Shown here piece after piece: positions 414 through 16,398 of a stretch of DNA of 64,000 nt (the stretch's first letter is position 1; every line of letters begins with the position of its first letter). The stretch comes from Lentilactobacillus sunkii DSM 19904 (GTDB lineage Bacteria > Bacillota > Bacilli > Lactobacillales > Lactobacillaceae). Made by a program: the position numbers and the translations under genes. The notes beneath the pieces are model-generated. The model had not been told where the DNA came from and ran no database searches. It saw only the letters and a program-made list of their open reading frames with translations. The stretch is taken from contig NZ_AZEA01000012.1 in NCBI RefSeq assembly GCF_001435575.1, positions 1 through 64,000 on the forward strand, given 5' to 3'.

Positions 414-1601
414 ATGAAAAGAAATTTTGTTCATTTTATTCAATTTTTGTTTGTAGCAATTATTTTTGCGTTTATCGGGGGAGCAACAGGTACAGCAAAA
501 GCCGATTCGGCAAATCTGGGGGACGGTTCCTACACGGTTCCAGTCACATTATTAAAAAGTGGTAGTTCATCGCAGTCAATGGCCAATCATTTTTTTGAAC
601 AAACTGCTCAAGTAACCGTCGATCAAGGAAATTATACGACCGTTATCACCACTAATGGGGCAAACTACATTGCTTCAATGACAATGGCCGGGCAAAGTGC
701 CTCACCAATTATAACTTCGGGAAATAATGGAACGATGACCTTTAATCTTACCAATCCTAACAATACAATTCCGGTTAGCTTTGTTCTTTACAACATTCCA
801 CTCATTGGTCAGATGCAGGAGTCAGCAACCTTTTCATTTAATTGGACGGCAGCTGTTAAGCAGCCTGGATCCGACACGACATCAAGTACGACTGCTGTTG
901 AACCGACAAATTCCAATACGGATCCCAGTACAACCACTCCGACCAGTTCAAGCAGCAGTGCAACCACACCAACTGAAAACAGCAGCTCAACGGCTCCTGT
1001 GAAGACACCAACCATTAAGAAGGTGGCTTCGAAGACGAATGTGCCAACGACAACCCGTAAATATGTTGTTTTAAAGGGTGATTCCAATTCCAAATCAATG
1101 GCGAATAAATATTTTACTCGAACTGCTATTATTAAGAAAATCGCCAAGCATTATAATGTACAGCTGGAAGTTTCTTACAAGAAGAGTTTAAAGTTGGGTT
1201 CCAAAGCCGTTCGACCTGTCACAATTAACGGCCGTAAGGTTAAATCTTCGGTTGTTCATTACGGTCAAACCTCTAAAAATTACACAATGACCTATTCGTT
1301 CAATGTTTCGTCATTCAAGACTTTGAAGAAAATTATTAAAGGGTCAATCCACGTAGTCGTTCCACAAGCTCAAATCAATACAACATGGCCGATTCGTTTC
1401 AAATTTGCTCAAAAAGCACCGGCTAAAGCCAATAAGCATGCCGCAATCGCAGCTAGCGATGTCGCCAGCAGCTCAGCTTCAAGCCAGACAAAATTACCAC
1501 AAACCGGTGATGCTGATCAAAATAATTTATCAGTTTTTGGAGTTGCTTTAGTATCCGGATTATCCTTTATTTGGGGGAATAATCATGAGACTATCAAATA
1601 A
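414..1601 (+). CDS. LPXTG-anchored surface protein with two NEAT domains
   Basis: A predicted haem-binding cell-wall protein of 395 aa. A signal peptide (residues 1-30, cleavage after AKA) precedes NEAT domain 1 (about 38-146), a Ser/Thr/Pro linker (150-212) and NEAT domain 2 (about 214-332). The sorting signal LPQTG is at 361-365. Both NEAT domains keep the N-terminal SMAN contact segment (56-59 and 228-231). At the place of the haem-ligating YxxxY motif, however, domain 1 reads MQESA (134-138) and domain 2 INTTW (321-325), so neither shows an axial tyrosine. The hydrophobic tail ends in NNHETIK, which is less basic than usual. A GAGGGGGA ribosome site fixes the start. The 3' end overlaps the next gene by 17 nt. 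Sortase A at 47173 is the likely anchoring enzyme. Role in haem relay is inferred. Confidence 0.85.
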   Translation: MKRNFVHFIQFLFVAIIFAFIGGATGTAKADSANLGDGSYTVPVTLLKSGSSSQSMANHFFEQTAQVTVDQGNYTTVITTNGANYIASMTMAGQSASPIITSGNNGTMTFNLTNPNNTIPVSFVLYNIPLIGQMQESATFSFNWTAAVKQPGSDTTSSTTAVEPTNSNTDPSTTTPTSSSSSATTPTENSSSTAPVKTPTIKKVASKTNVPTTTRKYVVLKGDSNSKSMANKYFTRTAIIKKIAKHYNVQLEVSYKKSLKLGSKAVRPVTINGRKVKSSVVHYGQTSKNYTMTYSFNVSSFKTLKKIIKGSIHVVVPQAQINTTWPIRFKFAQKAPAKANKHAAIAASDVASSSASSQTKLPQTGDADQNNLSVFGVALVSGLSFIWGNNHETIK

Positions 1602-2394
1602 ATCCAAGTGGCTGATTGGCATTTTGGCTGCATTTGGTTTGTTTTTTGTGAGCACTTTTCCCGCGGATGCTCAAACCATTGCATATCATCCATTGCGATA
1701 TGGAACCAATCAAACATCAATGGCTGACGGCTATTTTGTTAAACCAGCAAACGTGATCGTTAAAAATCACTTGTATTATGTCACAATGCAAATCAAGACA
1801 GCCAAAAGCTTATCGTCATATCCGGTTAAAGTGCTGTGGGTCAATGGCCGGGCGCCAGTTAATGTTCGTCGGGTTAAAGATCGGGCAGGCAATTCACACG
1901 TCTATTATTCGTTTTATTCAAACAATTTAAAAAAACGAATCAATGCAAAACTGGCGATTGATGTCCCTAAAGTCTACAAGGCGCGGCATCTGATTTCGTT
2001 CAAATTCAATACGACGGGGTTGCCAAGCCTTGGCCAAAAGCACACTGTAGCGACTCACAACGCTGCTGTTTCCGCCACTACCAAGCCAACTAAAACAAGC
2101 AGCAGTCAATCCACCAAGACCAATCCAAATCAACCGAAAACAACTTCCAAGAAACCAAGTCAAAAAGCAAAAGTAAAGAAGTCTTCCAAGACTAAAAAGA
2201 CGCCTCAGAAGACTTCAAAAAAAGAAAGTTCATCTCAGCCCTCTGCCAGTAGCAGCAGCCAGAAAGCAACCAAACCGGCTAAGCATAGTTCCAGCAAGCC
2301 ACAAACCAAGAAAAGTGGCGTCCCGTGGATTGTTGGAGGCGTGACGCTGATTGCCGGCATTTCCGCTGGGTTATGGATTTACTTTAGACACTAA
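1585..2394 (+). CDS. Membrane-anchored NEAT-domain haem-binding protein
   Basis: A 269-aa protein with an N-terminal signal peptide (about 1-30, ending ADA), one NEAT domain (about 33-142), a Lys/Ser/Thr-rich spacer (155-245) and a C-terminal membrane helix (about 247-266) ending in FRH. There is no LPXTG signal, so it probably stays in the membrane while the spacer crosses the wall. The NEAT domain keeps the SMADGYF segment (45-51) and, unlike the upstream protein, an axial tyrosine: YKARH at 131-135 aligns with YxxxY, with histidine as second residue. It would be the best haem ligand of the three NEAT domains and could hand haem to the IsdE-like protein encoded 18 nt downstream. The function is inferred from domain and context. 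Confidence 0.83.
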   Translation: MRLSNKSKWLIGILAAFGLFFVSTFPADAQTIAYHPLRYGTNQTSMADGYFVKPANVIVKNHLYYVTMQIKTAKSLSSYPVKVLWVNGRAPVNVRRVKDRAGNSHVYYSFYSNNLKKRINAKLAIDVPKVYKARHLISFKFNTTGLPSLGQKHTVATHNAAVSATTKPTKTSSSQSTKTNPNQPKTTSKKPSQKAKVKKSSKTKKTPQKTSKKESSSQPSASSSSQKATKPAKHSSSKPQTKKSGVPWIVGGVTLIAGISAGLWIYFRH

Positions 2395-2412
2395 AAGGGG
2401 GAGACAGTAAAG

Positions 2413-3318
2413 ATGAAAGGATCTCGTAAGATTGCTTTAATTGTACTGTCAATCATCCTGGTTGTTGGTGGACTAGCCGGTTTATTCATGAGTCATATTG
2501 GGGCATCAAACCATCAGAAAAAGGCGCGGATAGTTGCGACTACTTTTGCCGTGGTTCAAATCGCCGACAAACTCAAATTACCTTTGGTTGGTGTACCAAC
2601 AACTCAAAATAAAATCCCCACTCGGTATGCCCACGCTGCCAAAGTTGGTAATCCGATGAATCCAAGCGTTGAGAAAATTGCCAGTTTAAAACCGACTGCT
2701 GTATATTCAGTCACAACTCTGCAGGATCAATTTGGGAAAGCTTTTAAGCAGCGCCATATCGAACCACATTTTCTCGATTTAACCAGCGTTGCCAAGCTCA
2801 AACAAACGATTGGCTCAATGGGGCAAAAGTATGACCGAGTCACCGAAGCTAAAGCCGCAGTTGGCGAGATCAATCAAGCTGAATCACAGGTAAAAAAGGT
2901 TGCAAAAAAGCACGCTCAAAAGCCACGGGTTCTCATATTGATGGGACTCCCAGGGGCGTCCTATATGATTGCGACTAATCAGTCCTATGTTGGCGATTTG
3001 GTTGCAATTGCCGGTGGCCGGAATGTTTTTGCTTCGAAGTCGCAGGAATTCATCTCGCCTAATGATGAGGCGATTAAGAAAGCCCGTCCACAGGTGATTT
3101 TGAGATTGGCTCATGCGCTTCCGAATATCGTAATTCCGCAGTTTAAGTCTGAATTTAAATCGGACCCAATCTGGAAGACGACTCCAGCGGTTAAAAGCCA
3201 CCGGGTCTATGATTTAACCGAACCTAATTTTGATGCCACCGCAAACATGAAAGCCTCAACGGCACTAAAGATTGTTTCAAATTGGCTGTATCCCAAGGAA
3301 GGGAGCAGTGCACATTGA
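2413..3318 (+). CDS. Haem ABC transporter substrate-binding protein, IsdE-like
   Basis: A 301-aa periplasmic-binding-protein family member that should receive haem and deliver it to the permease. Residues equivalent to the IsdE haem ligands are present: Met82 in the GNPMNPS segment and His234 in LRLAHALP. IsdE uses Met78 and His229. The N-terminus (8-28) is a hydrophobic segment without any cysteine, so there is no lipobox and the protein is apparently held by an uncleaved membrane helix, which is unusual for the family. A GGGGGAGA ribosome site precedes the ATG. The stop overlaps the TTG start of the permease (TTGA), indicating translational coupling. A siderophore substrate is a less likely alternative because of the NEAT neighbours and the Met/His pair. 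Confidence 0.86.
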   Translation: MKGSRKIALIVLSIILVVGGLAGLFMSHIGASNHQKKARIVATTFAVVQIADKLKLPLVGVPTTQNKIPTRYAHAAKVGNPMNPSVEKIASLKPTAVYSVTTLQDQFGKAFKQRHIEPHFLDLTSVAKLKQTIGSMGQKYDRVTEAKAAVGEINQAESQVKKVAKKHAQKPRVLILMGLPGASYMIATNQSYVGDLVAIAGGRNVFASKSQEFISPNDEAIKKARPQVILRLAHALPNIVIPQFKSEFKSDPIWKTTPAVKSHRVYDLTEPNFDATANMKASTALKIVSNWLYPKEGSSAH

Positions 3319-4280
3319 GTAAGGCTGAAAAAGTATGGTATTCAATTATTTTGGTGATGCTTGTCATCACCATTTTGGTTTCAATGATGGTAGGCGCAAG
3401 CTTTATCCCGCTTAACCAAGTCATGGATGCGTTCAAAGGCGACAATCCCAATCAATTAGATATTTTAATTAACATTCGCTTTCCACGGATCCTTGCCGTA
3501 ATGATATGCGGTGGGATGTTGGCTGTTGCCGGTGCTGCAAGTCAAGCAGCTTTTCGAAACGTATTGGCTGATCCCAGCATTTTAGGGGTTACCAGTGCCG
3601 CTGACTTTTTCATTATGGTTGGGGCGATGCTATTACCCGCATTTCCTGCCGGAAAGTTTATTTTTTCAATTCTAGGCGGTTTATTTGCGTTGTTTCTTTT
3701 AACTCGAGGCCCGGCACTGAAAAGTCCATATCGGCTGATTATTATTGGTGTCGCAATGATGCTGACGTTTACTGGCTTTGAACAGTTATTTTCCAGTGGG
3801 TTTGGTGGTCAGAGTGCGGGATCATTCAATGGGATCACCTGGTCACAGACGGAAGTCCTTTTATTTCTTGGTGTTAGCGGGATGGCGGTGGCAGTTATAA
3901 TCTCACCATGGGCAAACTATTTGAAATTATCTACCGAACAACTGCAAACCAGGGGCGTTTCTGCTTCGTTCATGCGCGTGTCGTTACTGCTGGTCGTTGT
4001 TTATTTGTCATCTAGCGTTTCCTCAGTGGTGGGCACTATTCCATTCATGGGGATTGTTGTCCCAAACGTTGTTAGGTATTTAGTGGGACGGGACTACCAA
4101 ACAGTCATTCCATTGTCGATGCTGCTTGGTGCATGGCTTTTGCTGGTGGTTGACACCATTGGCAGAATTGTCGTTTTGCCAAGTGAACTGTCGGCAGCCG
4201 TAATCATGACGGTTATTGGCGGCCCATTCCTGATTATGATGCTGCAAAGGAAGAATTTTAATGGAATTAAATCAAGTTAG
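3315..4280 (+). CDS. Haem ABC transporter permease, IsdF/FecCD type
   Basis: A 321-aa FecCD-family permease with about eight to ten hydrophobic segments. The family pattern is clear in its first third (RFPRILAVMICGGMLAVAGAASQ, here 51-73 approximately) and in the C-terminal GIVVPNVVRYLVG segment that contacts the ATPase. I start it at TTG 3315 because AAGGAAGGGAG lies eight to ten bases upstream and the start overlaps the previous stop. An upstream ATG at 3282 is in frame but has no comparable ribosome site. It overlaps the ATPase gene by 20 nt, so the three transporter genes are tightly coupled. Confidence 0.85.
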   Translation: MSKAEKVWYSIILVMLVITILVSMMVGASFIPLNQVMDAFKGDNPNQLDILINIRFPRILAVMICGGMLAVAGAASQAAFRNVLADPSILGVTSAADFFIMVGAMLLPAFPAGKFIFSILGGLFALFLLTRGPALKSPYRLIIIGVAMMLTFTGFEQLFSSGFGGQSAGSFNGITWSQTEVLLFLGVSGMAVAVIISPWANYLKLSTEQLQTRGVSASFMRVSLLLVVVYLSSSVSSVVGTIPFMGIVVPNVVRYLVGRDYQTVIPLSMLLGAWLLLVVDTIGRIVVLPSELSAAVIMTVIGGPFLIMMLQRKNFNGIKSS

Positions 4281-5022
4281 TTATCATTATCCCCAACAGC
4301 CAGCTCTTCTCCAGAAAGTTAGTGCAACTGTCCCAAAAGGCCGAATATTATCGATAATTGGGCCAAATGGTGCTGGTAAGTCAACACTTCTGAAACTCAT
4401 GGCTGGCATTATTTCACCGACAAACGGGGAAGTCTTATTAAATAATCAATCAGTTACGACAATTCCCCGAAAAAGTCTTGCGACTCAGATTGCCGTTGTC
4501 AGTCAGCAGAATGATGTGTTCGATGATATGCCGGTTATCGATGTTGTCAAAACGGGCAGGCTTGCCCACCATAATCTATTGGCAACCATCTCTGATGCCG
4601 AGGTGGCTAAATATATTGAAGCCACCATGTTAAGCAACCTCGCTCACAGACCATTGTCATCGCTATCTGGTGGACAGCGACAACGGGTTTGGCTTGCATC
4701 CGCATTGGCCCAAGACCCTCAATATTTGTTATTGGATGAGCCGACAACGTATTTGGATATTCACTATCAAGCTGAACTGATGGCCATTCTGCAAAGGCTG
4801 AACGATCAAAAACACATCACCATTATCATGGTGCTCCACGATATTAACCAGGCATTTAAAATTAGCGACGAACTTTGGCTGGTTAAAAATGGCCGGTTGG
4901 TTCAAGTTGGCAAGCCAGAAGACTGCTATAACCGTGAGTTGTTGGCATCAATCTTTGATACAAACATTCAAATTGTTGACGTTCCAAATTATGGGAAATA
5001 TATCGTTGAAATACCCAGTTAA
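4261..5022 (+). CDS. Haem ABC transporter ATP-binding protein
   Basis: A 253-aa ATPase of the FepC/FhuC/HmuV group. It has Walker A GPNGAGKST (34-42), a Q-loop near VSQQ, signature LSGGQRQR (135-142), Walker B LLLDEP (156-161) and a switch histidine in VLHDI. It energises the FecCD-type permease encoded just upstream. Many NEAT/Isd loci lack a dedicated ATPase and use a shared one, so its presence makes this transporter self-sufficient. A strong bidirectional terminator follows. Confidence 0.86.
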   Translation: MELNQVSYHYPQQPALLQKVSATVPKGRILSIIGPNGAGKSTLLKLMAGIISPTNGEVLLNNQSVTTIPRKSLATQIAVVSQQNDVFDDMPVIDVVKTGRLAHHNLLATISDAEVAKYIEATMLSNLAHRPLSSLSGGQRQRVWLASALAQDPQYLLLDEPTTYLDIHYQAELMAILQRLNDQKHITIIMVLHDINQAFKISDELWLVKNGRLVQVGKPEDCYNRELLASIFDTNIQIVDVPNYGKYIVEIPS

Positions 5023-5050
5023 TGCAAAATGTAGATAATTATAGGCAAAA

Positions 5051-5092
5051 AAATAGAAGCAGGACAATGTTCAAATTGTCCTGCTTCTATTT
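5051..5092. terminator. Bidirectional terminator between haem transporter and NDH-2
   Basis: An 18-bp perfect stem (5051-5068 with 5075-5092) has a six-base loop and A/T tails on both sides. It serves the two converging transcription units. Confidence 0.9.
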
Positions 5093-5104
5093 GTAATGAA
5101 TCAA

Positions 5105-6730
5105 TTATTTCTTATAAATTGACTTTGGGACACCGTAACGTGAACGGCCCCAAGTCTTCTGTAACCATGGAACGAACCAGTAATCCAAGCCAAATGAACG
5201 ACCTGAACCATTCATCAATGCAATAGCTGCAAAGACGATCCATGCATGCGGCCAACTGGCAATTCCCAAGAAGAAGATGATGATTAACGCCAAGTTGGCA
5301 ATCCAGGTAAACAGTCCAAAGAATATCAAGCAGCCAAGCACTGCTTCAATCGCTGTTAAACCAAATCCAACTGGAATAATTACATTGTATGAAAGGGCGT
5401 CGACCATTAAGACGATTCCGAGGAACAGTCTGAGTGGAACGCTCCATAACGCATTGCTTTGACGTGCGGTAATTCCCGGTAAAACAGTTCGGTTATTATT
5501 AACTCTGAAGAATTCTTCCAAGATATACTGCATCATGAAGTAACCGGAGTGAATTCGCATGAAGTATAGTAAGTTGGTTCCATGCTTCATAATTGTTGCA
5601 ATCCAACCACGGATTCGTTTGCCGCCAAATACTTGAGCAATTCCGTAGTAGGCACCAAATGAAACAGTGAAGCCCATATTCTTATCGTGGAACTCAGTGT
5701 AATTCTGGTTGCCTTCGATATCAGCAGCAATGTTGGCGGAAGAAACAACGGCTTCATTTTCAGCTTCCTGAGCAGTTTGCGGAACGGCACGTTCAGCGCC
5801 TTGTTCAGTTGCATTGGCATCATCACCGGCAACATAAATGCTCTTATCTTCGAACCCTTTGGCCTGAAGATATTGATTGGTTACCAAACGACCGCCACGG
5901 CCGGCATCAATTCCAAAGCTGTCGGCAACATGGTTAGTCTTAACACCGGCAGTCCAAATCAAGGTATTGGTTGGAATTGAATCTTGATCCTTGATGTCGA
6001 CACTGTCTGGATTAACGGAAGTAATCATTGAGGAAGTTCGGATTTCAATGCCGTTCTTCTTAATATAAGCTTCCGCATGGGCAGCATTGGTTCGGTCAAG
6101 CATATTGATGATAGTTGGAGCCGCTTCAACCAAAAGAATGTGAATCTCGTTTGGATCAAGCTTGTAATCCTTTGCTAAAACCTTCTTGTAGTCAATGAGT
6201 TCACCGATTGTTTCGGCACCGGTAAATCCGGACCCACAGACAACAATGGTCAACATTGCTCGACGTTTGTCGGGATCACGTTCAATGGAACCTTTAGCAA
6301 CGATGTCACGGATGTGGGCTCGAAGACGTAATGCATCTTCCATGGACCACAAGGTAAATCCATTTTCCTTAACACCTGGTGTTCCGAAGTCGTTTGGTTC
6401 TCCACCCATACTGATTAACAGACTGTCAAATGGGTAGGTTCCATTCTCCCCCGTAACGATCTTTTTATCCTTATCAACTTCAGTCACCGTGTCAGTCACA
6501 AGCTGAACATTTTTCTGCTTGTGAAAAATGCGTTGCAAGTCATACTGAATGCTGCTGGGATCGACACGTTCAGTCGCAACTTCATGTAATCGGGTGAGAT
6601 AGGTGAAGTACGAATGACGATCAATCAATGTAATTTTGACGTCAGAATTGCTCTTGAATCGTTTAGCCAACTTCTTTGTGGCATAAACACCTGCAAATCC
6701 GGCACCAATGACGACGATATTCTTTGTCAT
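5105..6730 (-). CDS. ndh: Type II NADH:quinone oxidoreductase with C-terminal DoxX-like membrane domain
   Basis: A 541-aa single-subunit NADH dehydrogenase that oxidises NADH and reduces menaquinone without pumping protons. The FAD-binding GAGFAG (9-14) is near the N-terminus. The NAD-binding GSGFTGAET lies near residue 165, and GDDAN of the second FAD motif near 300. After the usual NDH-2 core (about 400 aa) there is a hydrophobic extension of about 110 aa with four predicted membrane segments, resembling DoxX-family proteins. It probably anchors the enzyme and may shape the quinone site. The start is ATG 6730 with AAAGGGGG about nine bases upstream. The longer frame has no ribosome site. 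It is divergent from cydABDC and should feed that oxidase. Confidence 0.9.
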   Translation of the reverse strand: MTKNIVVIGAGFAGVYATKKLAKRFKSNSDVKITLIDRHSYFTYLTRLHEVATERVDPSSIQYDLQRIFHKQKNVQLVTDTVTEVDKDKKIVTGENGTYPFDSLLISMGGEPNDFGTPGVKENGFTLWSMEDALRLRAHIRDIVAKGSIERDPDKRRAMLTIVVCGSGFTGAETIGELIDYKKVLAKDYKLDPNEIHILLVEAAPTIINMLDRTNAAHAEAYIKKNGIEIRTSSMITSVNPDSVDIKDQDSIPTNTLIWTAGVKTNHVADSFGIDAGRGGRLVTNQYLQAKGFEDKSIYVAGDDANATEQGAERAVPQTAQEAENEAVVSSANIAADIEGNQNYTEFHDKNMGFTVSFGAYYGIAQVFGGKRIRGWIATIMKHGTNLLYFMRIHSGYFMMQYILEEFFRVNNNRTVLPGITARQSNALWSVPLRLFLGIVLMVDALSYNVIIPVGFGLTAIEAVLGCLIFFGLFTWIANLALIIIFFLGIASWPHAWIVFAAIALMNGSGRSFGLDYWFVPWLQKTWGRSRYGVPKSIYKK

Positions 6731-6783
6731 GAAAAGATTCCCCCTTTGAAATAATTGCAATAAGATTGCGTTAGAAAATTACA

Positions 6784-6792
6784 ATAATAGCA
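6784..6792 (-). promoter_or_regulatory. Candidate extended -10 promoter of ndh
   Basis: On the minus strand TGCTATTAT (TG-n-TATTAT) lies about 55 bases before the ndh start. No good -35 hexamer is seen, which is tolerated by extended -10 promoters. Confidence 0.45.
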
Positions 6793-6970
6793 TAAACTAA
6801 TCTTATCACCCTTATTATAAATGTGGGGTAGGCAATTGTCTAATGAAAGCCATTGCAACAATTTCACAAATGAATCCGGAAATTTAAATATTCATGCATT
6901 TTCAACAATTGATGACGGTTTCATATTCAGAAGTCGATTGTACCCATATCCGGCCTCATTTATGAGTGTT

Positions 6971-6989
6971 CACTGATAATTAATTAGTG
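6971..6989. promoter_or_regulatory. Near-palindrome upstream of the cyd promoter
   Basis: CACTGATAATTAATTAGTG is a 19-bp imperfect palindrome (seven of nine arm positions pair). It ends six bases before the -35 box of cydA. The position suits an operator for a redox or haem regulator. The sequence is not a Rex site (TTGTGAA-N4-TTCACAA). The remainder of the 344-base ndh-cydA space shows nothing else convincing. Confidence 0.4.
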
Positions 6990-6995
6990 TTTTCA

Positions 6996-7024
6996 TTGAA
7001 TATTGAACCATTTCTATATACAAT
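6996..7024 (+). promoter_or_regulatory. cydABDC promoter
   Basis: TTGAAT (6996-7001) and TACAAT (7019-7024) are separated by 17 bases, with cydA starting about 50 bases downstream. Confidence 0.7.
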
Positions 7025-7074
7025 ATAGATATATGAGGATAACTCATTAATATTTAGTAAGGGGGGATACAACA

Positions 7075-8529
7075 ATGTTAAATGTCGGATTGTCGATGTT
7101 GGGGTTGTCACGTTTTCAATTCGCGATGACCACGGTGTTTCACTTCTTCTTCGTACCATTTTCCATTGGTTTAGCTTTTATTGTTGCGATTATGGAAACT
7201 TGTTACGTTGTAACGAAGGATGACACATACAAAAATATGACAAAGTTTTGGGGGAAGATTTTCCTTTATAGTTTTGCCGTAGGTGTTGTTACTGGTATTA
7301 TTCAAGAGTTCCAGTTTGGTATGAACTGGTCTGATTATTCAAGGTTCATGGGGGATATTTTTGGTGCGCCACTTGCAATTGAAGCTTTGGCAGCCTTCTT
7401 TATGGAATCAACATTTATTGGCCTGTGGATGTTCACATGGGATCGCTTCAATAAGGTGGTTCACTGCTTGTTCATTTGGTTAACTGCGTTTGGTTCTACT
7501 TTATCTGCTCTCTGGATTTTGGCTGCTAACAGTTTTATGCAAAACCCAGTCGGCTATGCAATGAACGCTGCTCAACACAAAGTTGAGATGACCAGTTTTG
7601 GCGCTGTTATTATGAACCGTCAACTGTGGAATGAATTTCCACACGTTATCTTCGGTGCATTCTTGACAGCTGCATTTGTTGTTGCCGGATGTTCAGCATG
7701 GCGTTTATTGAAGAAAGATCACGAAAACTTTTATCGTAAATCAATGAAAGTTACGTTGATTGTTGGTTTGATCGCCTGCTTAGGTTCCATTTGGTCAGGT
7801 GATACTCAAACTCGTTACCTGATTAATAATCAACCTATGAAGTATGCCGCAATGGAAGGTCTTTGGAAGAATTCCACTCAAAAGGGTAATTGGTCGGTTA
7901 TTCAAGGCACAAAGAACCATAAGACTACTTGGTCAATTGAAGTTCCTTATGTATTGAATATTCTTGGTCATCACAGCCTGAACGGTACCTTCAAGGGTCA
8001 ACAACAGGTTAACAAAGAATTAAAAGCTAAGTACAACAAGAATGGTGAGACTCGTAATTATTACGTTCCAACCCGTACCTTGTTCTACAGCTTCAGAATT
8101 ATGGCTGTATCTGCCGGATTATTTGCACTTGTTGCAATTATCGGATTATGGTTCAACCGTAAGAAGTCTCAAAGCATTATGAGGCAGCGCTGGTTCCTAT
8201 ACGTTATGGGTCTCATGGTTTGGCTGCCATTCATCGTTAATACCTGTGGCTGGTTCGTCACTGAATTTGGTCGTTATCCATGGGTTGTATACGGACTGCT
8301 GACCATTGCCGATGCGGTATCACCAACGTCTACCGTGGCAAGTTTGCTGTTTACCAACATTGTCTACTTCTTGATCTTTGCTTCATTGGGAGCTGTCATG
8401 ATTATCTTGAGTCACCGGGTTCTCAAACAAGGACCGGATTCAGTATTGACTGATGGTTACTCAACCAAACCTCAAGATTCAGACAAAAAGGTAGATCCGT
8501 ATGAAATGGGGGCGGCTCATAATGACTAG
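7075..8529 (+). CDS. cydA: Cytochrome bd ubiquinol/menaquinol oxidase subunit I
   Basis: A 484-aa integral membrane subunit carrying the haems of the oxygen-reducing cytochrome bd oxidase. His23 in the VFHFFFVPFS segment, the histidine of the FPHVIFGAF segment (near 190) and the methionine of SFRIM (near 345) match the haem ligands of the family. The segment GRYPWVVYGLLTIADAVS (near 400) is also typical. It is shorter than the E. coli protein (about 520 aa), as is normal for Firmicutes with a short quinol loop. An AAGGGGGGA ribosome site precedes the ATG. Lactobacilli cannot make haem, so activity depends on imported haem, which explains the adjacent NEAT/IsdE-type genes. Confidence 0.95.
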   Translation: MLNVGLSMLGLSRFQFAMTTVFHFFFVPFSIGLAFIVAIMETCYVVTKDDTYKNMTKFWGKIFLYSFAVGVVTGIIQEFQFGMNWSDYSRFMGDIFGAPLAIEALAAFFMESTFIGLWMFTWDRFNKVVHCLFIWLTAFGSTLSALWILAANSFMQNPVGYAMNAAQHKVEMTSFGAVIMNRQLWNEFPHVIFGAFLTAAFVVAGCSAWRLLKKDHENFYRKSMKVTLIVGLIACLGSIWSGDTQTRYLINNQPMKYAAMEGLWKNSTQKGNWSVIQGTKNHKTTWSIEVPYVLNILGHHSLNGTFKGQQQVNKELKAKYNKNGETRNYYVPTRTLFYSFRIMAVSAGLFALVAIIGLWFNRKKSQSIMRQRWFLYVMGLMVWLPFIVNTCGWFVTEFGRYPWVVYGLLTIADAVSPTSTVASLLFTNIVYFLIFASLGAVMIILSHRVLKQGPDSVLTDGYSTKPQDSDKKVDPYEMGAAHND

Positions 8530-9535
8530 TTATCAATTTATTTGGTTCTTGTTGATTGGCGTGTTGTTTAGTGGCTTCTTCTTTCTCGAAGGTTTTGATT
8601 TTGGTATTGGAATGGCCGTTCGTTTCTTTGCCAAGAACCGTGCAGAACGAGACACCGTCATTCAAACAATTGGGCCTCACTGGGATGGAAATGAAGTTTG
8701 GCTGATCACTGCCGGTGGTGCAATGTTTGCATCATTTCCAATGTGGTACGCTTCATTATTCTCAGGTTATTACATTGTCTTGTTCTTAATTTTAGTTGCG
8801 TTAATCTTCAGAGGTGTGTCATTTGAATTCCGTGCCAACATGCAGACGGATACTTGGCGTAACTTCTGGGAGTGGGCATCATCCATTGGCAGTTTCTGTG
8901 CTGCCTTCTTATTTGGGATGATGTTTACCAGTATGATTCAAGGTGTTCCAATTGATAAAAATGGTGATATCTTTGGTACCTTTACCACTTATGTCAACTG
9001 GTTCTCAATCGTAGGTGGCGTTGCAGTTTCACTGCTTTGCTTCATCCACGGTTTGAACTTCCTGCGGTTGAAGACGACTGGTGAATTAAGAGATCGTGCT
9101 CAAAAATGGAGCAAGATACTTTACCCTGTATTGCTTGCAGGTGAAGTTGTCTTTGTCATTTTGCTTTACTTGACTACCGACTTCTTTACTCGTAAGCCGA
9201 TGTCAACTTGGGGCATCTTAATCGCCTTGGTTATCTTTACATTAGCTGCATGGTGGGGCGCTCAAGCTAAGCATGATTGGGCATCATTTATTGCCAGTGG
9301 ACTTTCACTGATCAGTGTGGTTGTCTTAATCTTCAATGGCTTGTTCCCACGAGTTATGATTGCAACGACTAATGCAAATTCAATCTTGATTAAAAATGCA
9401 TCAAGCTCACCATATACTTTGCGTCTGATGACAATTTTGACCTTCACGATCTTGCCAATTGTCCTGGTATACTTCATCTGGAGTTACTGGGTATTCTACA
9501 AGAGAATCAAGTCACCAAAGCAGGTAACGGAATAA
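8522..9535 (+). CDS. cydB: Cytochrome bd oxidase subunit II
   Basis: A 337-aa integral membrane partner of CydA. The N-terminal FLEGFDFGIGM signature (about 21-31) and the GPHWDGNEVWLITAGG segment (about 52-67) are diagnostic. I place the start at ATG 8522, overlapping the cydA stop by 8 nt behind GGGGGCGG. An ATG 21 bases earlier has no better site. A repeat element and a terminator follow before cydD, so cydDC may be partly uncoupled from cydAB. Confidence 0.95.
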   Translation: MTSYQFIWFLLIGVLFSGFFFLEGFDFGIGMAVRFFAKNRAERDTVIQTIGPHWDGNEVWLITAGGAMFASFPMWYASLFSGYYIVLFLILVALIFRGVSFEFRANMQTDTWRNFWEWASSIGSFCAAFLFGMMFTSMIQGVPIDKNGDIFGTFTTYVNWFSIVGGVAVSLLCFIHGLNFLRLKTTGELRDRAQKWSKILYPVLLAGEVVFVILLYLTTDFFTRKPMSTWGILIALVIFTLAAWWGAQAKHDWASFIASGLSLISVVVLIFNGLFPRVMIATTNANSILIKNASSSPYTLRLMTILTFTILPIVLVYFIWSYWVFYKRIKSPKQVTE

Positions 9536-9540: not shown

Positions 9541-9660
9541 GCGACAAGACCCGGTTAGGGTCCGGAGCATAAGCAAAAGAGCTTCGTGGTGAACGATTTT
9601 TGTTCATCGCGAGGCTCTTTTGCTTATGCAGTAGGGCCCTGGGTCGTCGGAGCTGTCCTT
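9541..9660. repeat. Palindromic intergenic repeat, copy 1 (no cassette)
   Basis: A large inverted repeat begins six bases after cydB. Perfect 16-bp arms GCATAAGCAAAAGAGC (9567-9582) and its complement (9614-9629) enclose a smaller hairpin (GGTGAAC/GTTCATC). Outer arms GCGACAAGACCC and GGGTCGTCG extend it. The unit ends GTCGGAGC. It has no T-run directly after it, so it is not simply a terminator. The core of its right half recurs at 9818-9858. Confidence 0.75.
9609..9649 (+). repeat. Right-half repeat unit, first copy
   Basis: This 41-base segment (GCGAGGCTCTTTTGCTTATG and onward) is repeated at 9818-9858 with about five substitutions. Confidence 0.7.
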
Positions 9661-9680
9661 AAAGCAATAGACGAGACTGA

Positions 9681-9721
9681 AAAGCAATAATGAACGGTTT
9701 TCGTTCATTGTTGCTTTTTTT
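9681..9721 (+). terminator. Terminator after cydAB
   Basis: AAAGCAATAATGAACG (9681-9696) pairs with CGTTCATTGTTGCTTT (9702-9717) with one G-T, followed by further T residues. Confidence 0.8.
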
Positions 9722-9785: not shown

Positions 9786-9817
9786 GTCGGAGCTGTCATC
9801 AGAAAACCAATATGATA

Positions 9818-9893: not shown

Positions 9894-10091
9894 GTCGGAG
9901 TTGTCCTCAGATGTACGATCGAGCATTAAATCGTCCCGTCTGACACAATAGCAACTAGTCCGCCACCATATGATCCACTTTGACTCCAAACCAAATAAAA
10001 CCACAAATAAAAGCGGTCACATATTTCATTGTGCGCAATAATTCTTTATACTAGATACTGTAATTACTTTTGTAGTGGGGGAGTGAAAAGT

Positions 10092-11822
10092 TTGATTGAT
10101 AAAAGATTGTTTGATCTGCCGGGGATGAAGAAGTATGCCGCAATTCTGGGTGTTCTTATCTTCATTCAGGCAGTCGCAATAATTGCCCAGGCTCGGGCGT
10201 TGTCAATCGCGATCGTCAACTTATGGAATCTACAGTCGATTAATACGATTGTTGTACCAGCTATTGTATTTACAGTTGCTTTCATGGGTCGTCATTTGTT
10301 GACCGTGGTTGAAAATCGAGTCCTGTTTCCTTTTGTTGAGAAAACAAGTGGGGATATGCGAGAAGATTTGATGGCAAAAATATTTCGGCTTGGACCCGCT
10401 GAGATTGATAAACGGGGAACTGGAAACATTGTCACCATGGCACTTGAAGGAATTGATCAAGTGCAGACTTATTTGATGTTGGTGATTATCAAGATATTGG
10501 ATATGTCGATCACGCCATGGCTGATTTTGCTTTATGTGTTGTTTCTTCGCTGGGAACAAGCGATTTTCTTATTTGCAATTTTTCCAATTATCATTTTATT
10601 CATGATTATTCTCGGACTTGCTGCCCAGAGTAAGGCTGATCGGCAATATGAAGGGTACCAGAGGCTTTCCAACCACTTTGTCGATACATTACGGGGACTG
10701 CCGACATTGAAGCAGCTGGGGCTTTCTAAGCGTTATGCCGACAATGTCTATGAAGTCAGTGAATCGTACCGTAAAGAGACCATGTCAACATTGCGAATAG
10801 CTTTGACGTCCACCTTCGCACTTGATTTCTTCACAACGTTATCGATTGCGGTCGTCGCTGTTTTTCTTGGTTTTGATTTGATGGACGGTAAGGTCTTGCT
10901 GTTACCCGCACTGACGATTTTGGTGCTGGCACCGGAATATTTCCTACCTATTCGAAACTTTGCCAATGATTATCACGCAACTCTGAACGGGAAAAACGCC
11001 ATGAGTGCCGTTATGGACGTTTTGCATGAGCCCGAAATGACTGAGCGGGAAATTCTGCCTGATTTGAAATGGGAAAAAGGTTCCACTTTGAAATTGGATC
11101 AGGTTTCTTTGACTTATCCGGATACCAAAGTGCCAACTTTAAAAGACATTTCAATTAACATTAAAGGGATGCAGAAAATTGGCATTATTGGTGCATCTGG
11201 ATCTGGAAAATCGACTTTGATCAACTTAATTGGTGGATTTCTGTCACCTGACGGTAAAAATCAGATTTCGATTAACGGTCATCAGCTGCCTCACCTGAAC
11301 CAGGCTAATTGGCAGAAGAACTTTCTTTATATTCCGCAAAATCCATATTTATTCCATGCCACTTTGGCGGATAACATTTCATTCTATGTTTCTGCGGCAA
11401 CCTCAGAAGAAATTAACAACGCCGCAGCTAAGGCCGGACTTTCTGATTGGATTAAAACATTGCCGGATGGACTTAACACCATGATTGGTGAAGGGGCCCG
11501 GACGGTTAGTGGCGGTCAGGCACAACGGATTGCATTAGCCAGAGCCTTTTTGGATCCGAGTCGGAAAGTGTTGTTATTTGATGAGCCCACAGCCCATCTG
11601 GATATTGAAACTGAAGCCAGCTTGAAGAATGACATTTTACCCGTCTTCAACGATCATCTGGTATTCTTCGCAACTCATCGACTTCACTGGATTGGTGAAA
11701 TGGACTATGTCCTGGTGATGGATCACGGACGTTTGGTTGAACAGGGAACACCCGATGAATTGGCTCAACGAAATGGTGATTATGTCAAGCTCCGTTCTGA
11801 AATGGAGGCGGCTGATCTATGA
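10092..11822 (+). CDS. cydD: Thiol reductant ABC exporter, CydD-type subunit
   Basis: A 576-aa half-transporter with an N-terminal six-helix membrane domain (about 1-310) and an ATPase domain: Walker A GASGSGKST near 367, signature VSGGQAQR near 471, Walker B LLFDEP near 495. With CydC it exports cysteine/glutathione and is required for cytochrome bd assembly. The gene is called cydC in the B. subtilis naming order. I choose CydD because the partner carries the CydC-type RYIERLTSH segment. The start is TTG 10092 with GGGGGAG about eight bases upstream. A GTG at 10083 is adjacent to that site and too close. The stop overlaps cydC by four bases. Confidence 0.88.
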   Translation: MIDKRLFDLPGMKKYAAILGVLIFIQAVAIIAQARALSIAIVNLWNLQSINTIVVPAIVFTVAFMGRHLLTVVENRVLFPFVEKTSGDMREDLMAKIFRLGPAEIDKRGTGNIVTMALEGIDQVQTYLMLVIIKILDMSITPWLILLYVLFLRWEQAIFLFAIFPIIILFMIILGLAAQSKADRQYEGYQRLSNHFVDTLRGLPTLKQLGLSKRYADNVYEVSESYRKETMSTLRIALTSTFALDFFTTLSIAVVAVFLGFDLMDGKVLLLPALTILVLAPEYFLPIRNFANDYHATLNGKNAMSAVMDVLHEPEMTEREILPDLKWEKGSTLKLDQVSLTYPDTKVPTLKDISINIKGMQKIGIIGASGSGKSTLINLIGGFLSPDGKNQISINGHQLPHLNQANWQKNFLYIPQNPYLFHATLADNISFYVSAATSEEINNAAAKAGLSDWIKTLPDGLNTMIGEGARTVSGGQAQRIALARAFLDPSRKVLLFDEPTAHLDIETEASLKNDILPVFNDHLVFFATHRLHWIGEMDYVLVMDHGRLVEQGTPDELAQRNGDYVKLRSEMEAADL

Positions 11823-13561
11823 AAAATTTGAGAAAAACATTTGCAAATGATACATGGGTAATGCCTTACCTTCGTAAATATAAAGGGTTATTGATTCTTG
11901 TGCTGTTCTTAGGATTTATGACTTTCTTCTCTGGTGGTGCCTTGATGTTTAACTCTGGGTATCTGATCAGTGAAGCTGCTCGACAACCATCAAGCATTAT
12001 TTATATCTATGTACCGGTTGTTTTGGCCAGGGCATTTGGGATTGCCCGACCAGTATTCAGGTATATCGAACGACTCACAAGTCATAACTGGGTTTTGCGA
12101 ATTGTCTCCGACTTTCGTAAGAAGCTGTATCAAACTGTCGAAAGTAAAGCGTCAGCTATTCAACGATCCCATCAGACTGGAGATATTTTGAGTATTTTGG
12201 CGGACGATATTGAGCACATTGAAAACCTCTATCTCCGGACGGTTTTCCCAATGGTGATCGGCTGGCTGCTTTACATTTTCGTGGTAATCGGTGTCGGTTC
12301 GCTCAATTTGGTAGTTGGTTTATTGATGCTGTTGCTGCTTGGCGTTATCACAATTGTGATGCCGCTTGCTTCAGTAGCAACTAATGGTGTCCGCGAATTC
12401 AAGCAACATCAGATTCAACATGAATTCTATACGAACTTAACCGATGAAGTTTTAGGCTTGGGTGACTGGCTGATTTCAGGTCGGTATGATGATTTTATTA
12501 ATTTACAAAAGAAACCAATTAAAGAGATTGCTGCTCTTAGAAAACAAGATCACTATTTCCAATGGTGGCGTTCATTCTTCGTTCAGTTTATTGTGTTGCT
12601 GACAACACTGGTTCTGCTGGTATGGTCGGCCTATCAATTCACTGAGACCAAATCTTTGGCTAATTGGGTTGCCGCGTTTGCACTGGCAATTTTCCCGGCC
12701 GTTTCACCTTTTGTGAATATGAGTCAGGGTGCCAGTGAATGGCCGGTTTACCGCCGTTCTATCGAGCGGGTTAATGCGTTGGATTCCGGTGACAAACAAC
12801 CGGTTAAACAAACAACTTTGAATGAACCATTCAACGAGCTTTCAATCGATAATCTGACATTCAAGTATGCAGATGGTGATCGGGATGTTGTTAAAAATAT
12901 TTCTATGGATATTCATCCTGGTGAAAAAATTGCTTTGCTGGGTCCGAGTGGGACTGGTAAGAGTACTTTCTTGAAATTAGTTGTTGGTGATTTGACGCCA
13001 TCGGACGGTCAGGTATTGGTGAATAACCAAAACATTTTGAATCTTCAAGATGTTCGTTCGTCATTATTTGGGATTTTGGATCAACAACCGTATTTGTTCG
13101 ATACAACCGTTATGAACAACGTTCGCTTAGGTAATGTCGATGCGACTGATCAACAGGTGAAGGACGCCATTGCCGCCGTGGATTTGAAGGATTTGATTGA
13201 ATCGCTGCCTGATAAGTATGATACTCAGGTGCAAGAGGCCGGTAAACGGTTCTCAGGTGGAGAACGACAGCGATTATCATTAGCAAGAATTCTTCTGCAG
13301 GATGCGCCGATTATCATTCTGGATGAACCAACTGTCAGCTTGGATCCAATTACTGAAAAGAAATTGTTGGATAAAGTCTTTGAATTGCTTCACGATAAAA
13401 CGATTATCTGGGTAACCCACCATTTGGCAGGAATCACCCATGTCGATCAGGTCCGCTTCATGGAACATGGCCAGTTTGATATGCAGGGGACACCTCAGGA
13501 ATTGTACAAGACGCAAGCAAGATTTAGGCAGCTGTATGATTTGGATAGGGGAAAAGCGTAG
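11819..13561 (+). CDS. cydC: Thiol reductant ABC exporter, CydC-type subunit
   Basis: A 580-aa partner half-transporter. The membrane domain carries the CydC-like segment RPVFRYIERLTSHN (about 78-91). The ATPase domain has Walker A GPSGTGKST near 374, signature FSGGERQR near 478 and Walker B IILDEP near 500. It forms a heterodimer with the preceding product. The ATGA overlap with cydD shows translational coupling. It ends the cyd cluster and is followed immediately by two palindromic intergenic repeats. Confidence 0.88.
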   Translation: MKNLRKTFANDTWVMPYLRKYKGLLILVLFLGFMTFFSGGALMFNSGYLISEAARQPSSIIYIYVPVVLARAFGIARPVFRYIERLTSHNWVLRIVSDFRKKLYQTVESKASAIQRSHQTGDILSILADDIEHIENLYLRTVFPMVIGWLLYIFVVIGVGSLNLVVGLLMLLLLGVITIVMPLASVATNGVREFKQHQIQHEFYTNLTDEVLGLGDWLISGRYDDFINLQKKPIKEIAALRKQDHYFQWWRSFFVQFIVLLTTLVLLVWSAYQFTETKSLANWVAAFALAIFPAVSPFVNMSQGASEWPVYRRSIERVNALDSGDKQPVKQTTLNEPFNELSIDNLTFKYADGDRDVVKNISMDIHPGEKIALLGPSGTGKSTFLKLVVGDLTPSDGQVLVNNQNILNLQDVRSSLFGILDQQPYLFDTTVMNNVRLGNVDATDQQVKDAIAAVDLKDLIESLPDKYDTQVQEAGKRFSGGERQRLSLARILLQDAPIIILDEPTVSLDPITEKKLLDKVFELLHDKTIIWVTHHLAGITHVDQVRFMEHGQFDMQGTPQELYKTQARFRQLYDLDRGKA

Positions 13562-13680: not shown

Positions 13681-13796
13681 GAGTGTAACGAGCAACGGGT
13701 GATGCGGTGTGTAAGGGCAACTGGGTTGAAATCCCGGGCTTGGATTTGAATCCAGTTGCCCTTACACGTTAGCATCAGTTGCGTCGGCACACGTTT
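13681..13796. repeat. Palindromic intergenic repeat, copy after cydC (second)
   Basis: GAGTGTAACGAGC opens the unit. TGATGC pairs with GCATCA, and GTGTAAGGGCAACTGG pairs with CCAGTTGCCCTTACAC around a 27-base centre. The unit ends GTCGGCACACGTTT. Its arms differ in sequence from neighbouring copies but keep the same layout. Confidence 0.7.
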
Positions 13797-13841
13797 CAAC
13801 CAGGTAAACTTACCCCACCACCAAACAAACACAAAAGCAAA

Positions 13842-13893
13842 AAAAGATTGCCGCCCCAACTGGGAAATTCCAGCCGGAAAGCGACAATCTTTT
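13842..13893 (-). terminator. Terminator of the polyprenyl synthase gene
   Basis: AAAAGATTG (13842-13850) and CAATCTTTT (13885-13893) form the outer stem with CGC/GCG continuing it. On the minus strand a T-run follows. Confidence 0.75.
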
Positions 13894-13907
13894 ATTTTAT
13901 CCAACTA

Positions 13908-14885
13908 TTACTGCTTTCGAGTCAGCAGCATCTTAGTCAGTTTTTCAAGATCATGCTTTGATTTTTGTTCAGGCAACCGGGCAATTAAGCTAAGTGCCTT
14001 ATCTGTTAATTTGTCTGCAGTATCAATGGCTTTTTGAAGACCACCGGACTCTATTACAATTTGTTGAATTTGGTGAATATCTTCATCAGTAATCGATTCT
14101 TTTTTATCTAATAATGGCTTTAAGCGTATGTGATCAAGTTGGTTGGCGAATATCAGCGGCAATGTATAAACCCCTGACTTGAGATCTTCGAGCACCGGCT
14201 TTTTTGTTTGACGGGTTTCACCACTGCAATCCAAAATGTCATCCAGAATTTGGTAGGCTTGACCAATTGCAAGACCAAGGTCACCGCCAATCTGGACAAT
14301 TTCATCAGATGCGTGGGTGACAATTGCACTCTGCTGGAAACATAGTCTGAACAGCTCGGCTGTCTTACCGGTGATCTCGTGGAAGTAATCAGCTTCGGTC
14401 ATCTGTTGATTGAAGTTGTACTTCATCTGATCCAGTTCGCCTGCCAAAATGATCTGCATGGCATCGACGTGTCGCTTCATATCGGTGGGGTCCTGGGTTG
14501 ATTTGAGCACTTGGGTGAAGTAACACGTAAAGAGGTAGTCTCCGGCGTAGATGGCGTTTTTTTGGCCATATTTGGGATGAATTGTTTCAACTCCTCGTCG
14601 AAGTGGGGAATCGTCGATGACATCGTCATGAATTAACGTGGCCAAGTGCAGTAGTTCGACTGCAGCGGCACCAGCTTTAATTTTTGCGGGATCAACTTTT
14701 TCACCGAATTCTGAATAGATGTAAAAGAAGCCTGGACGCAGAAATTTTCCGCCGGACTTTAATAACTCGTCGATTTTGCGATGAATCGGCTGGTTTGGAA
14801 GGTTGACTGCCTTGAGCAGATACGGTTCCAAAGCGACTAATTTTAAATTAATGCGTGGAAATTGACGCCAAAGTGCATGAACCAT
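13908..14885 (-). CDS. Long-chain polyprenyl diphosphate synthase, catalytic subunit
   Basis: A 325-aa trans-prenyltransferase that condenses isopentenyl diphosphate units into the side chain of menaquinone. The first aspartate-rich motif DDVIDD is at 87-92 and the second, DDILD, at 215-219. The substrate-binding GGKFLRPG is at 45-52, so the active site is complete. It resembles component II of heptaprenyl diphosphate synthase. No component I gene is present nearby. It is placed between cydDC and a flavoprotein, which fits supply of quinone for respiration. The start is ATG 14885 with AGGT upstream; a TTG four codons earlier is possible. Confidence 0.87.
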   Translation of the reverse strand: MVHALWRQFPRINLKLVALEPYLLKAVNLPNQPIHRKIDELLKSGGKFLRPGFFYIYSEFGEKVDPAKIKAGAAAVELLHLATLIHDDVIDDSPLRRGVETIHPKYGQKNAIYAGDYLFTCYFTQVLKSTQDPTDMKRHVDAMQIILAGELDQMKYNFNQQMTEADYFHEITGKTAELFRLCFQQSAIVTHASDEIVQIGGDLGLAIGQAYQILDDILDCSGETRQTKKPVLEDLKSGVYTLPLIFANQLDHIRLKPLLDKKESITDEDIHQIQQIVIESGGLQKAIDTADKLTDKALSLIARLPEQKSKHDLEKLTKMLLTRKQ

Positions 14886-15069
14886 GGTATACCTCAATTT
14901 AATAAATTTTTAACTACAACATCTAAGATACAAATTCCATGGGGAGTTGTCAATCAAGGACGCGTGGAATTATTGACGAAGTGGTCTACAATGGATTTAA
15001 GATTTATATTTGGAGTATTTTAATGATGATATTTAATTCGCAATTTTTCATATTTTGGAGGAATTCTAA

Positions 15070-16398
15070 ATGACTAAACAATATGATGTGGTAATTCTTG
15101 GTGGGGGTGTTGCCGGCGTTTCACTGGCACATTCTTTGCGGAGACAGCGGAAAACCGTTGCTGTGGTTGAAAATAATCTATATGGCGGCACCTGTCCCAA
15201 TCGAGGGTGTGACCCGAAGAAAATTTTATTATCAGGACTTGAAGTTACCCAGCTTGTTGACGACATGCAGGGAAACGGGATTTCAGGCAAAGTTAAAGTC
15301 AACTGGTCCGATCTGATGCGGCATAAGCGTCAATATACCAATCCGATTTCCAATGCAACTCAAAATGGATTGGCTTCTGATGGAATCGATACCTATCATG
15401 AAAATGCCCATTTTAATAAAGATGGCTTGCTGGAAGCGGGAGATGACCTGCTTTCGGGCGATAAATACGTCATTGCAACTGGACAGCGGCCATCGATTTT
15501 GGATATTCCCGGCAAGCAATTTTTCAAGACGAGTACCGATTTCTTGAACCTTGATGAGATGCCTGAAGATGTGACCTTCGTTGGCGGCGGATACATTGGC
15601 TTTGAATTGGCGGGAATTGCCCACGCTGCCGGTGCCACAGTTCATTTGATCCATCACAATGATCGACCGTTGAAGCAGTTTGATCAGCAGCTGGTCAATC
15701 AAGCAGTGGATCATTTGACTCAATTAGGAATAGATTTTCATATGAATACAGATGTTAAGGCTATTACCCAGGTGGGTGACCAATTTGTCCTCTCCGGAGA
15801 TGACTTCCGATTACCAACCGACATGGTCTTCTGCACTGCGGGACGAGTTCCCAATGTTGATACGATTGGGTTGGAAAATGTTGGCGTGAAAGCTGACCGG
15901 CATGGTGTTTTGGTAAATGAGTATCTCCAGACCACCAACCCCAACATCTTTGCCATGGGGGATGTTGTCAGCACCAAACGGCCCAAACTCACACCGGTTG
16001 CCGGGTATGAAGCCGGCTATCTGGCAAAATATTTCAACGGATCGACCGAAAAAATCCAGTTCAAAGCAATCCCAACGATCGTCTTCGGTCAGCCGTCACT
16101 TGGACAGGTTGGACTACCATCAAGTATTGCGACCGACGACAGCAGGTATATGCTGATCACCAATGATATGACATCCTGGTACAGTTACCATCGTCTGAAT
16201 GAACCATTGGCGAAGGCCAAAGTTGTGATTAACAGAGATTCGGAAACGGTTGTGGGCGCAACAGTTTTAAGTAACCATGCCGATTACCTGATCAATATTT
16301 TCACGATGATGATTGATCAGCAGATGAAGATTAGTGATTTTAACAAAGAAATACTCGCATATCCAACCTTTGCGAGTGATGTGCAGTACCTGATATAG
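15070..16398 (+). CDS. Pyridine nucleotide-disulfide oxidoreductase, glutathione-reductase-like
   Basis: A 442-aa flavoprotein with FAD motif GGGVAG (11-16), redox pair Cys42/Cys47 in GGTCPNRGCDPKK, an NAD(P)-binding GGGYIG segment near 174 and FAD motif GDV near 300. The dimerisation domain occupies the last 110 residues. At the C-terminus, where glutathione reductases have the catalytic HPTxxE, this protein reads YPTFASD, so the usual His-Glu base is absent and the substrate may not be a simple disulfide. It is about as long as glutathione reductases. GGAGG-like AGGAATTC lies before the ATG. Its substrate is unknown; the neighbours suggest a redox role in respiration or oxidative stress. 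Confidence 0.8.
   Translation: MTKQYDVVILGGGVAGVSLAHSLRRQRKTVAVVENNLYGGTCPNRGCDPKKILLSGLEVTQLVDDMQGNGISGKVKVNWSDLMRHKRQYTNPISNATQNGLASDGIDTYHENAHFNKDGLLEAGDDLLSGDKYVIATGQRPSILDIPGKQFFKTSTDFLNLDEMPEDVTFVGGGYIGFELAGIAHAAGATVHLIHHNDRPLKQFDQQLVNQAVDHLTQLGIDFHMNTDVKAITQVGDQFVLSGDDFRLPTDMVFCTAGRVPNVDTIGLENVGVKADRHGVLVNEYLQTTNPNIFAMGDVVSTKRPKLTPVAGYEAGYLAKYFNGSTEKIQFKAIPTIVFGQPSLGQVGLPSSIATDDSRYMLITNDMTSWYSYHRLNEPLAKAKVVINRDSETVVGATVLSNHADYLINIFTMMIDQQMKISDFNKEILAYPTFASDVQYLI

Follow-up and report, generated by a model that had tools for sequence, protein, structure and literature searches.

An Isd-type haem-import operon beside the cytochrome bd genes of Lentilactobacillus: a probable single insertion and a candidate haem supply

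Introduction

By what route does a lactobacillus that respires obtain its haem? Respiring lactic acid bacteria need external haem, and its uptake route is largely open. A review states that no high-affinity haem importer has been described for Lactococcus lactis and makes the finding of Enterococcus faecalis importers a priority (PMC11282960); an energy-coupling factor (ECF)-type haem importer of L. sakei is cited in the literature, in reference entries, and the surface proteome reported for Levilactobacillus brevis includes IsdE (PMC9504196). Here we consider a locus in which genes for an Isd-type importer with NEAT surface proteins stand beside those for NDH-2 (ndh2) and cytochrome bd (cydABDC). 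It lies at the start of the window, which covers the initial 64 kb of contig C4 in a Lentilactobacillus genome of 2.69 Mb (G000). Judged by IsdE, the nearest named relatives of this genome are Lentilactobacillus otakiensis (85%) and L. kefiri (84%). The parts are known; the arrangement is true and conserved, and we found no report in the open-access literature of an isd operon beside cyd in Lentilactobacillus. We put at roughly two in three the reading that this operon was inserted once beside ndh2–cydABDC and would import haem for cytochrome bd.

Results

An Isd-type operon adjoins the oxidase genes

Judged from gene content, 414–5022 is an Isd-type haem-import operon comprising two NEAT proteins, IsdE, a permease and an ATPase, whose genes overlap or are closely spaced and all lie on the + strand. 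The first-pass annotation of 414–16398 had named, besides the NEAT proteins, an IsdE/F-type transporter with its ATPase, NDH-2, cydAB, cydDC, a polyprenyl synthase, a flavoprotein and helD; profile matches place all of them where it had put them, and gene content and order bear out its observation that a haem importer adjoins a haem-requiring oxidase. Its picture of one compact island is not supported, as at least five transcription units, read from strands alone, cross this region. The import operon and ndh2 are convergent, and the operon and cyd are separate units; any coupling would therefore act via supply and not through a single transcript. The rRNA boundary that it had proposed upstream is found in relatives, where 23S–5S–tRNA-Thr stands at the corresponding spot (loci L017 and L050), whereas in the window itself it would amount to only some 24 bases, recognized by eye.

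The linkage fits one insertion

A search of 24 genomes of the genus found IsdE above cut-off in 16 and CydA in 18. CydA is present in all 16 genomes with IsdE and in two of the eight without (Fisher 2e-4, kinship ignored). The order NEAT1–NEAT2–isdE–isdF–ATPase / ndh2 / cydA-B-D-C recurs in 11 of the 16 IsdE-bearing genomes (the window with L015–L018, L020–L024 and L026), the gap between ATPase and ndh2 being ∼82–237 bp by tblastn ends. In two more (G008 and G005) contigs end within ∼70 bp of the ATPase gene and of ndh2, as expected of adjacency; in G002, G021 and G022 the operon is located elsewhere, not beside ndh2–cydA. The conserved order that the first-pass annotation had named as a check is found, but it is confined to one clade and so counts as one event. 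The downstream side is less stable: in several relatives, cydC and the polyprenyl synthase gene are separated by additional DNA or the flavoprotein gene is missing from the stretch examined.

The presumed insertion site can be seen with and without the operon. In G001, 23S–5S–tRNA-Thr is followed by the operon and then ndh2; in G002 the same rRNA–tRNA end is followed by ndh2 after ∼87 bp. In the IsdE tree, for which a midpoint root was used for drawing only, the 13 linked or contig-broken genomes group together (95/93), with G002, G022 and G021 outside. In the CydA tree G002 and G022 stand apart (100/100), G021 sits on a long, unsure branch and the rest do not form one supported group. Because the G002 site is empty and the IsdE tree unites the 13 in a single group, one insertion followed by descent fits these data, with nothing in the CydA tree to contradict it. 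Nor does the IsdE tree call for a foreign isd copy acquired horizontally, which was also considered.

IsdE is nearly confined to genomes with cytochrome bd

We extended the search to a sample of 397 genomes of the family, for which the Fisher tests on IsdE and CydA ignore kinship and genome size. IsdE exceeds its cut-off in 57 of these and is matched at 1e-40 in 99; CydA is present in 283. CydA accompanies IsdE in 55 of the 57 IsdE-bearing genomes, the exceptions being G078 and G377, as against 228 of the 340 others (Fisher 4e-7). Leaving out Lentilactobacillus, the figures are 39 of 41 versus 226 of 332 (9e-5). All 42 genomes with weaker IsdE-like matches (1e-40, below cut-off) carry CydA; with these included, CydA is found in 97 of 99 genomes versus 186 of 298 (2e-14).

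A different pairing occurs in one of 24 distinct loci outside the genus, in G391, where the isd operon (L069, 801–11226) converges on ndh2–NusG_II–Hpre_diP_synt_I–polyprenyl synthase, a set that we take to be the core of the flavin-based extracellular electron transfer (FLEET) locus; NDH-2 is 632 aa there. L076 and L077, from the same genus, show no FLEET-like set, one of the two stretches being short, and genes for NusG_II and Hpre_diP_synt_I occur solely in L069 among the isd and cyd loci compared.

Probable haem capture by IsdE and the NEAT domains

Two IsdE positions, Met82 and His234, presumably serve as haem ligands. They align with the Met and His of Staphylococcus aureus IsdE (alignment to 2q8p and 5joq) and are retained in 23 of 23 aligned rows; among solved structures, Lmo2184 and S. 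aureus IsdE come closest. As a prediction, haem capture is well supported for IsdE.

The NEAT proteins are less uniform. At E 0.001 the genome contains three NEAT matches, all within NEAT1 (domains a and b) and NEAT2, and the IsdC equivalog TIGR03656 scores 90.9 and 47.9 bits, below its cut-off of 155.85. None of the three domains has the canonical YXXXY haem motif of strand 8. NEAT2 has YXXXH, with the first Tyr kept and His at the second place, invariant in 23 of 23 rows. In NEAT1a, YXXXY is absent from all 20 rows and a Met in the strand-8 region is present in 19, L. kefiri being the exception. An L045 fragment was dropped from alignment A1, which comprised 22 of 23 listed rows and the window, and the short L027 fragments of NEAT1a were dropped from alignment A2. 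In NEAT1b the first Tyr is missing from 27 of 27 rows, with Ile or Met nearly always in its place and an aromatic residue at the second; in the window Ile and Trp stand in place of the motif tyrosines. Among 343 NEAT domains surveyed, the Tyr-His form was counted in 31; the same survey reports that Hal, with Phe at the second motif place, binds haem, and describes a clostridial NEAT group whose conserved Met is resembled by that of NEAT1a (PMC4143258). In the NEAT1a structural model (mean predicted local distance difference test (pLDDT) score 86.5; best fold match IsdC, TM ∼0.67) Met109 comes third in strand 8 (107–117) and perhaps lies on the side used by the tyrosines. The NEAT2 model is of moderate confidence (mean pLDDT 75.8; TM ∼0.5 to IsdC or IsdX1, the latter being the best fold match). 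Both models confirm the predicted fold and nothing further. The NEAT haem capture proposed at first is likely for NEAT2 and may extend to NEAT1; two of the three domains lack both motif tyrosines.

Candidate haem clients and the quinone supply

Haem catalase, another potential client, is missing from 23 of the 24 genomes of the genus, G000 included; the sole copy (G015:C1:26737–27873) is in a genome with an in-frame stop in isdE. As to an IsdG-type haem oxygenase, a single ABM-domain match was found in G000, in a 95 aa protein that matches no NCBIfam model at 1e-10. Because IsdE is seldom found without CydA and haem catalase is nearly missing from the genus, cytochrome bd is the best candidate among the haem clients tested.

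To the first-pass annotation the locus had looked like a complete kit for respiration. This is not so: menA and menG are found side by side on a different contig (C3), the polyprenyl synthase gene is the only quinone-synthesis gene in the island, and the earlier men steps are reported absent in Lentilactobacillus buchneri (PMC8303990). L. buchneri DSM 20057 reached an optical density of 3.4 with haem and menaquinone versus 1.5 without (PMC8303990), and in L. buchneri CD034 cydA and cydB rise with oxygen (PMC4521753). The up-regulated set in that section of PMC4521753 names no NEAT or isd gene; it includes ten unnamed hypothetical genes.

Weighing the reading against its alternatives

Several observations weigh against the reading that the operon supplies haem to cytochrome bd. 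As the gene orders and trees indicate, the linkage is one event in one clade, and shared ancestry by itself could account for the genes staying adjacent. Outside the genus, cydAB was found near isd in none of 24 distinct loci within the stretches examined (27 loci less three judged duplicates: L037/L084, L043/L074 and L047/L073), several of which are short (L077, 5.7 kb); weak cydC-like matches of 23–27% identity in six of the out-of-genus loci are probably other ABC (ATP-binding cassette) transporters. Two genomes of the genus, G003 and G004, retain cyd without IsdE. The isdE gene of G015 has an in-frame stop, the NEAT1 frames of G016 and G005 are split and ndh2 of G005 falls into two tblastn pieces; some of these could be draft errors. 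A motif tyrosine is retained in only one of the three NEAT domains, and IsdX2 NEAT2, of the class keeping the first tyrosine only, is reported unable to bind haem (PMC4143258). As many as 186 of the 298 family genomes lacking any IsdE-like match carry cydA. Finally, G000 encodes a ferrochelatase (L086, C78:55867–56790; TIGR00109, 251 bits, cut-off 124.6).

The absence of IsdE from G003 and G004 is best read as secondary loss, because the CydA tree nests G003 (with G018, 99/96) and G004 (with G017, G007 and G005, 95/90) inside the group and other genes occupy the operon site. The stretch from tRNA-Thr to ndh2 contains a gene for a group II intron reverse transcriptase in G003 (L048, 1027–2433) and, in G004, genes for an IS110-type transposase and two C39-like peptidase/NlpC/P60-domain proteins (L049, 927–4654).

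Such losses in nested, cyd-bearing genomes would suit an alternative in which the operon mainly imports haem as an iron source, its place beside cyd being neutral and the product of one insertion at an rRNA–tRNA site kept by descent. The single-origin pattern and the 24 out-of-genus loci without cydAB in the stretches examined fit this alternative, and Isd systems classically serve iron acquisition (PMC5341603). We consider it unlikely; against it, the one ABM-domain protein of G000 has no NCBIfam match at 1e-10, and IsdE occurs without CydA in just two of 57 genomes.

Another possibility is that haem for cytochrome bd enters via CydDC or by diffusion through the membrane and that the Isd operon is dispensable for respiration. 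For E. faecalis, CydCD has been proposed as a main driver of haem uptake, and L. lactis is without a described high-affinity importer (PMC11282960); cydDC is present at the locus, and cydA is carried by 228 of the 340 family genomes in which IsdE does not reach its cut-off. This account leaves the near-confinement of IsdE to cydA genomes unexplained, and the high haem added in laboratory cultures may hide a requirement that shows when haem is scarce; we regard it as possible but doubtful.

The ferrochelatase bears on two questions. The host is probably unable to make haem from scratch, as the first-pass annotation had held: HemB was not found in G000. Since HemB is absent but ferrochelatase is present, this inability is supported at an early step only. 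HemB occurs in seven of the 24 genomes of the genus (G003, G004, G006, G009, G010, G017 and G018), where it is perhaps part of a cobalamin pathway. Ferrochelatase, whose gene in G000 adjoins that of an MntH-type manganese transporter, is present in 17 of the 24, including 15 of the 16 with IsdE (exception G002). That distribution, together with a NEAT1b devoid of motif tyrosines, would suit a NEAT/IsdE ligand other than haem, such as protoporphyrin or coproporphyrin, metallated by ferrochelatase. The Met and His of IsdE, kept in every aligned row, would be superfluous for a metal-free porphyrin, and G003 and G004 have ferrochelatase without IsdE; we think this very improbable.

Transcription signals and features of the window

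Promoter-like matches in the region number 40, no excess over the 36.2 of shuffled sequence, and terminator-like matches 27 versus 15.6. The promoter-region element upstream of NEAT1 is close in the window and L014–L018 and more diverged in L020, L021, L023 and others. It has no second site in its own genome with up to three mismatches allowed and, because it is a single site there, names no regulon.

Catabolite-responsive elements (cre) were sought with a CcpA-type consensus against a Markov background, in orthologous regions that are not independent. In the ndh2–cydA region, sites with at most two mismatches occur in 17 of 18 genomes and with at most one in seven of 18 (background 25% and 2.6%); upstream of NEAT1 the numbers are six and two of 16 (background 13% and 0.7%). 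Both genomes with at most one mismatch upstream of NEAT1, G002 and G022, have an unlinked operon, and the window itself has three mismatches. As the orthologous regions are not independent, these matches do not establish common CcpA control of the linked operon and cyd. The divergent ndh2–cydA region (6731–7074) holds, besides cre-like sites, a conserved ATTGTCTAATGA block.

Inspection of open reading frames covered the window up to 20 kb, and the window was scanned for tRNAs with ARAGORN and with Rfam (Table 1). For ndh2, isdF and cydD the open reading frames as listed begin at upstream TTG codons, and translation probably starts further in. Every NCBIfam model listed for the polyprenyl synthase scores below its cut-off, as do those for the flavoprotein among the best 25 of 97 matches, so the exact types of these two proteins are not certain.

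Table 1. Predicted genes and sequence elements at the start of the window.
Feature	Position	Strand	Evidence and remarks
∼24 bases resembling 5S rRNA end	window start		judged by eye; no 5S match in Rfam list
tRNA-Thr (GGT), rRNA operon end	96..168	+	ARAGORN, Rfam; import operon just downstream
Promoter-region element TGGTAAACTTACTxTGTACAAT upstream of NEAT1, operator-like	363..384	+	conserved in relatives
NEAT1, LPQTG end, two NEAT domains (a, b)	414..1601	+	PF05031 81.4 bits, PF00746
NEAT2, one NEAT domain, Y-x3-H, C-terminal hydrophobic segment	1585..2394	+	PF05031 56.3 bits
IsdE, haem-binding lipoprotein of ABC importer	2413..3318	+	TIGR03659 352 bits, cut-off 298.65
IsdF-like FecCD permease	3282..4280	+	PF01032 224 bits; NCBIfam matches below cut-off
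Importer ABC ATPase	4261..5022	+	PF00005; top NCBIfam models (FecE and relatives) score under cut-off
Terminator-like hairpin of 18 pairs where ATPase and ndh2 genes converge	5051..5092	-	scan lists - strand only, i.e. for ndh2
NDH-2-like NADH:quinone oxidoreductase (ndh2)	5105..6760	-	PF07992; likely start near 6730
CydA, cytochrome bd subunit I	7075..8529	+	PF01654 532 bits; PDB relatives 7nkz, 7d5i
CydB, cytochrome bd subunit II	8501..9535	+	TIGR00203 above cut-off
Two terminator-like hairpins between cydB and cydD	9577..9719	+	consensus matches only
CydD, cytochrome bd assembly ABC transporter	10029..11822	+	TIGR02857 542.8 bits, cut-off 435
CydC, cytochrome bd assembly ABC transporter	11819..13561	+	TIGR02868 454.3 bits, cut-off 329.05
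Polyprenyl diphosphate synthase	13908..14897	-	PF00348; nearest heptaprenyl component II, TIGR02748 196.4 vs cut-off 456.55
Glutathione-reductase-like flavoprotein	15070..16398	+	PF07992, PF02852; NF004776 301.7 vs cut-off 480
HelD, flanking gene outside proposed system	16618..18963	-	NF041464 above cut-off

Discussion

The reading we prefer, of an operon inserted once and importing haem for cytochrome bd, can be set out as follows. The Isd operon would have arrived a single time between rRNA–5S–tRNA-Thr and ndh2, in a forebear shared by most Lentilactobacillus species searched that carry cyd. Wall-anchored NEAT1 and membrane-anchored NEAT2 would collect haem and pass it to IsdE, from which the permease and ATPase would bring it into the cell. 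Cytochrome bd would then receive the haem intact, CydDC assisting in its assembly, and NDH-2 would pass electrons from NADH to quinone, partly scavenged, and so through cytochrome bd to oxygen. Functional coupling of importer and oxidase is plausible on this evidence, and the arrangement makes a good circumstantial case that imported haem serves cytochrome bd.

A bolder form of the proposal is that respiration on scavenged haem selected the importer's place beside the oxidase, giving a dedicated supply line for cytochrome bd in which a NEAT relay of Met-type, ligand-free and Tyr-His domains leads to IsdE. We advance this tentatively and think it doubtful; were it true, the isd operon beside a FLEET-like NDH-2 locus in G391 would mean that haem import and membrane electron transport had been paired a second time, independently. 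An Isd-type importer kept beside the oxidase in a genus is a concrete candidate for the haem supply line of lactobacilli, of relevance to starter cultures and to why non-pathogens keep NEAT proteins.

Comparison with known systems

The operon resembles the Isd systems of S. aureus and Listeria (IsdC, IsdE, IsdF) in its NEAT surface proteins, an IsdE above the equivalog cut-off with Met and His, and a FecCD permease. It differs in the C-termini of its NEAT proteins, which are LPQTG in NEAT1 and a hydrophobic segment lacking NPQTN in NEAT2, in having no canonical YXXXY and no recognized IsdG, and in adjoining cyd; the ATPase gene inside the operon is, we assume, a further contrast with those systems. 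Carnobacterium maltaromaticum and C. divergens are likewise lactic acid bacteria with NEAT proteins, IsdE, IsdF and cydABCD, for which the haem is proposed to serve respiration or iron supply; in C. maltaromaticum the ATPase homologue lies elsewhere, and adjacency to cyd is not stated in the sections of the papers drawn on here (PMC5341603, PMC6857183).

The oxidase genes themselves are like the cydABCD of other lactic acid bacteria, in which cytochrome bd goes with CydC and CydD and several species gain in growth only when haem and menaquinone are supplied jointly (PMC2696406, PMC8303990); unlike those, cyd is flanked here by ndh2, a polyprenyl synthase gene and a haem importer. With the FLEET locus the window shares an NDH-2 and a polyprenyl synthase gene near each other (PMC8837199). 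In contrast to that locus, ndh2 of the window is paired with cydABDC, has the isd ATPase gene and cydA as its neighbours and is accompanied by neither NusG_II nor Hpre_diP_synt_I.

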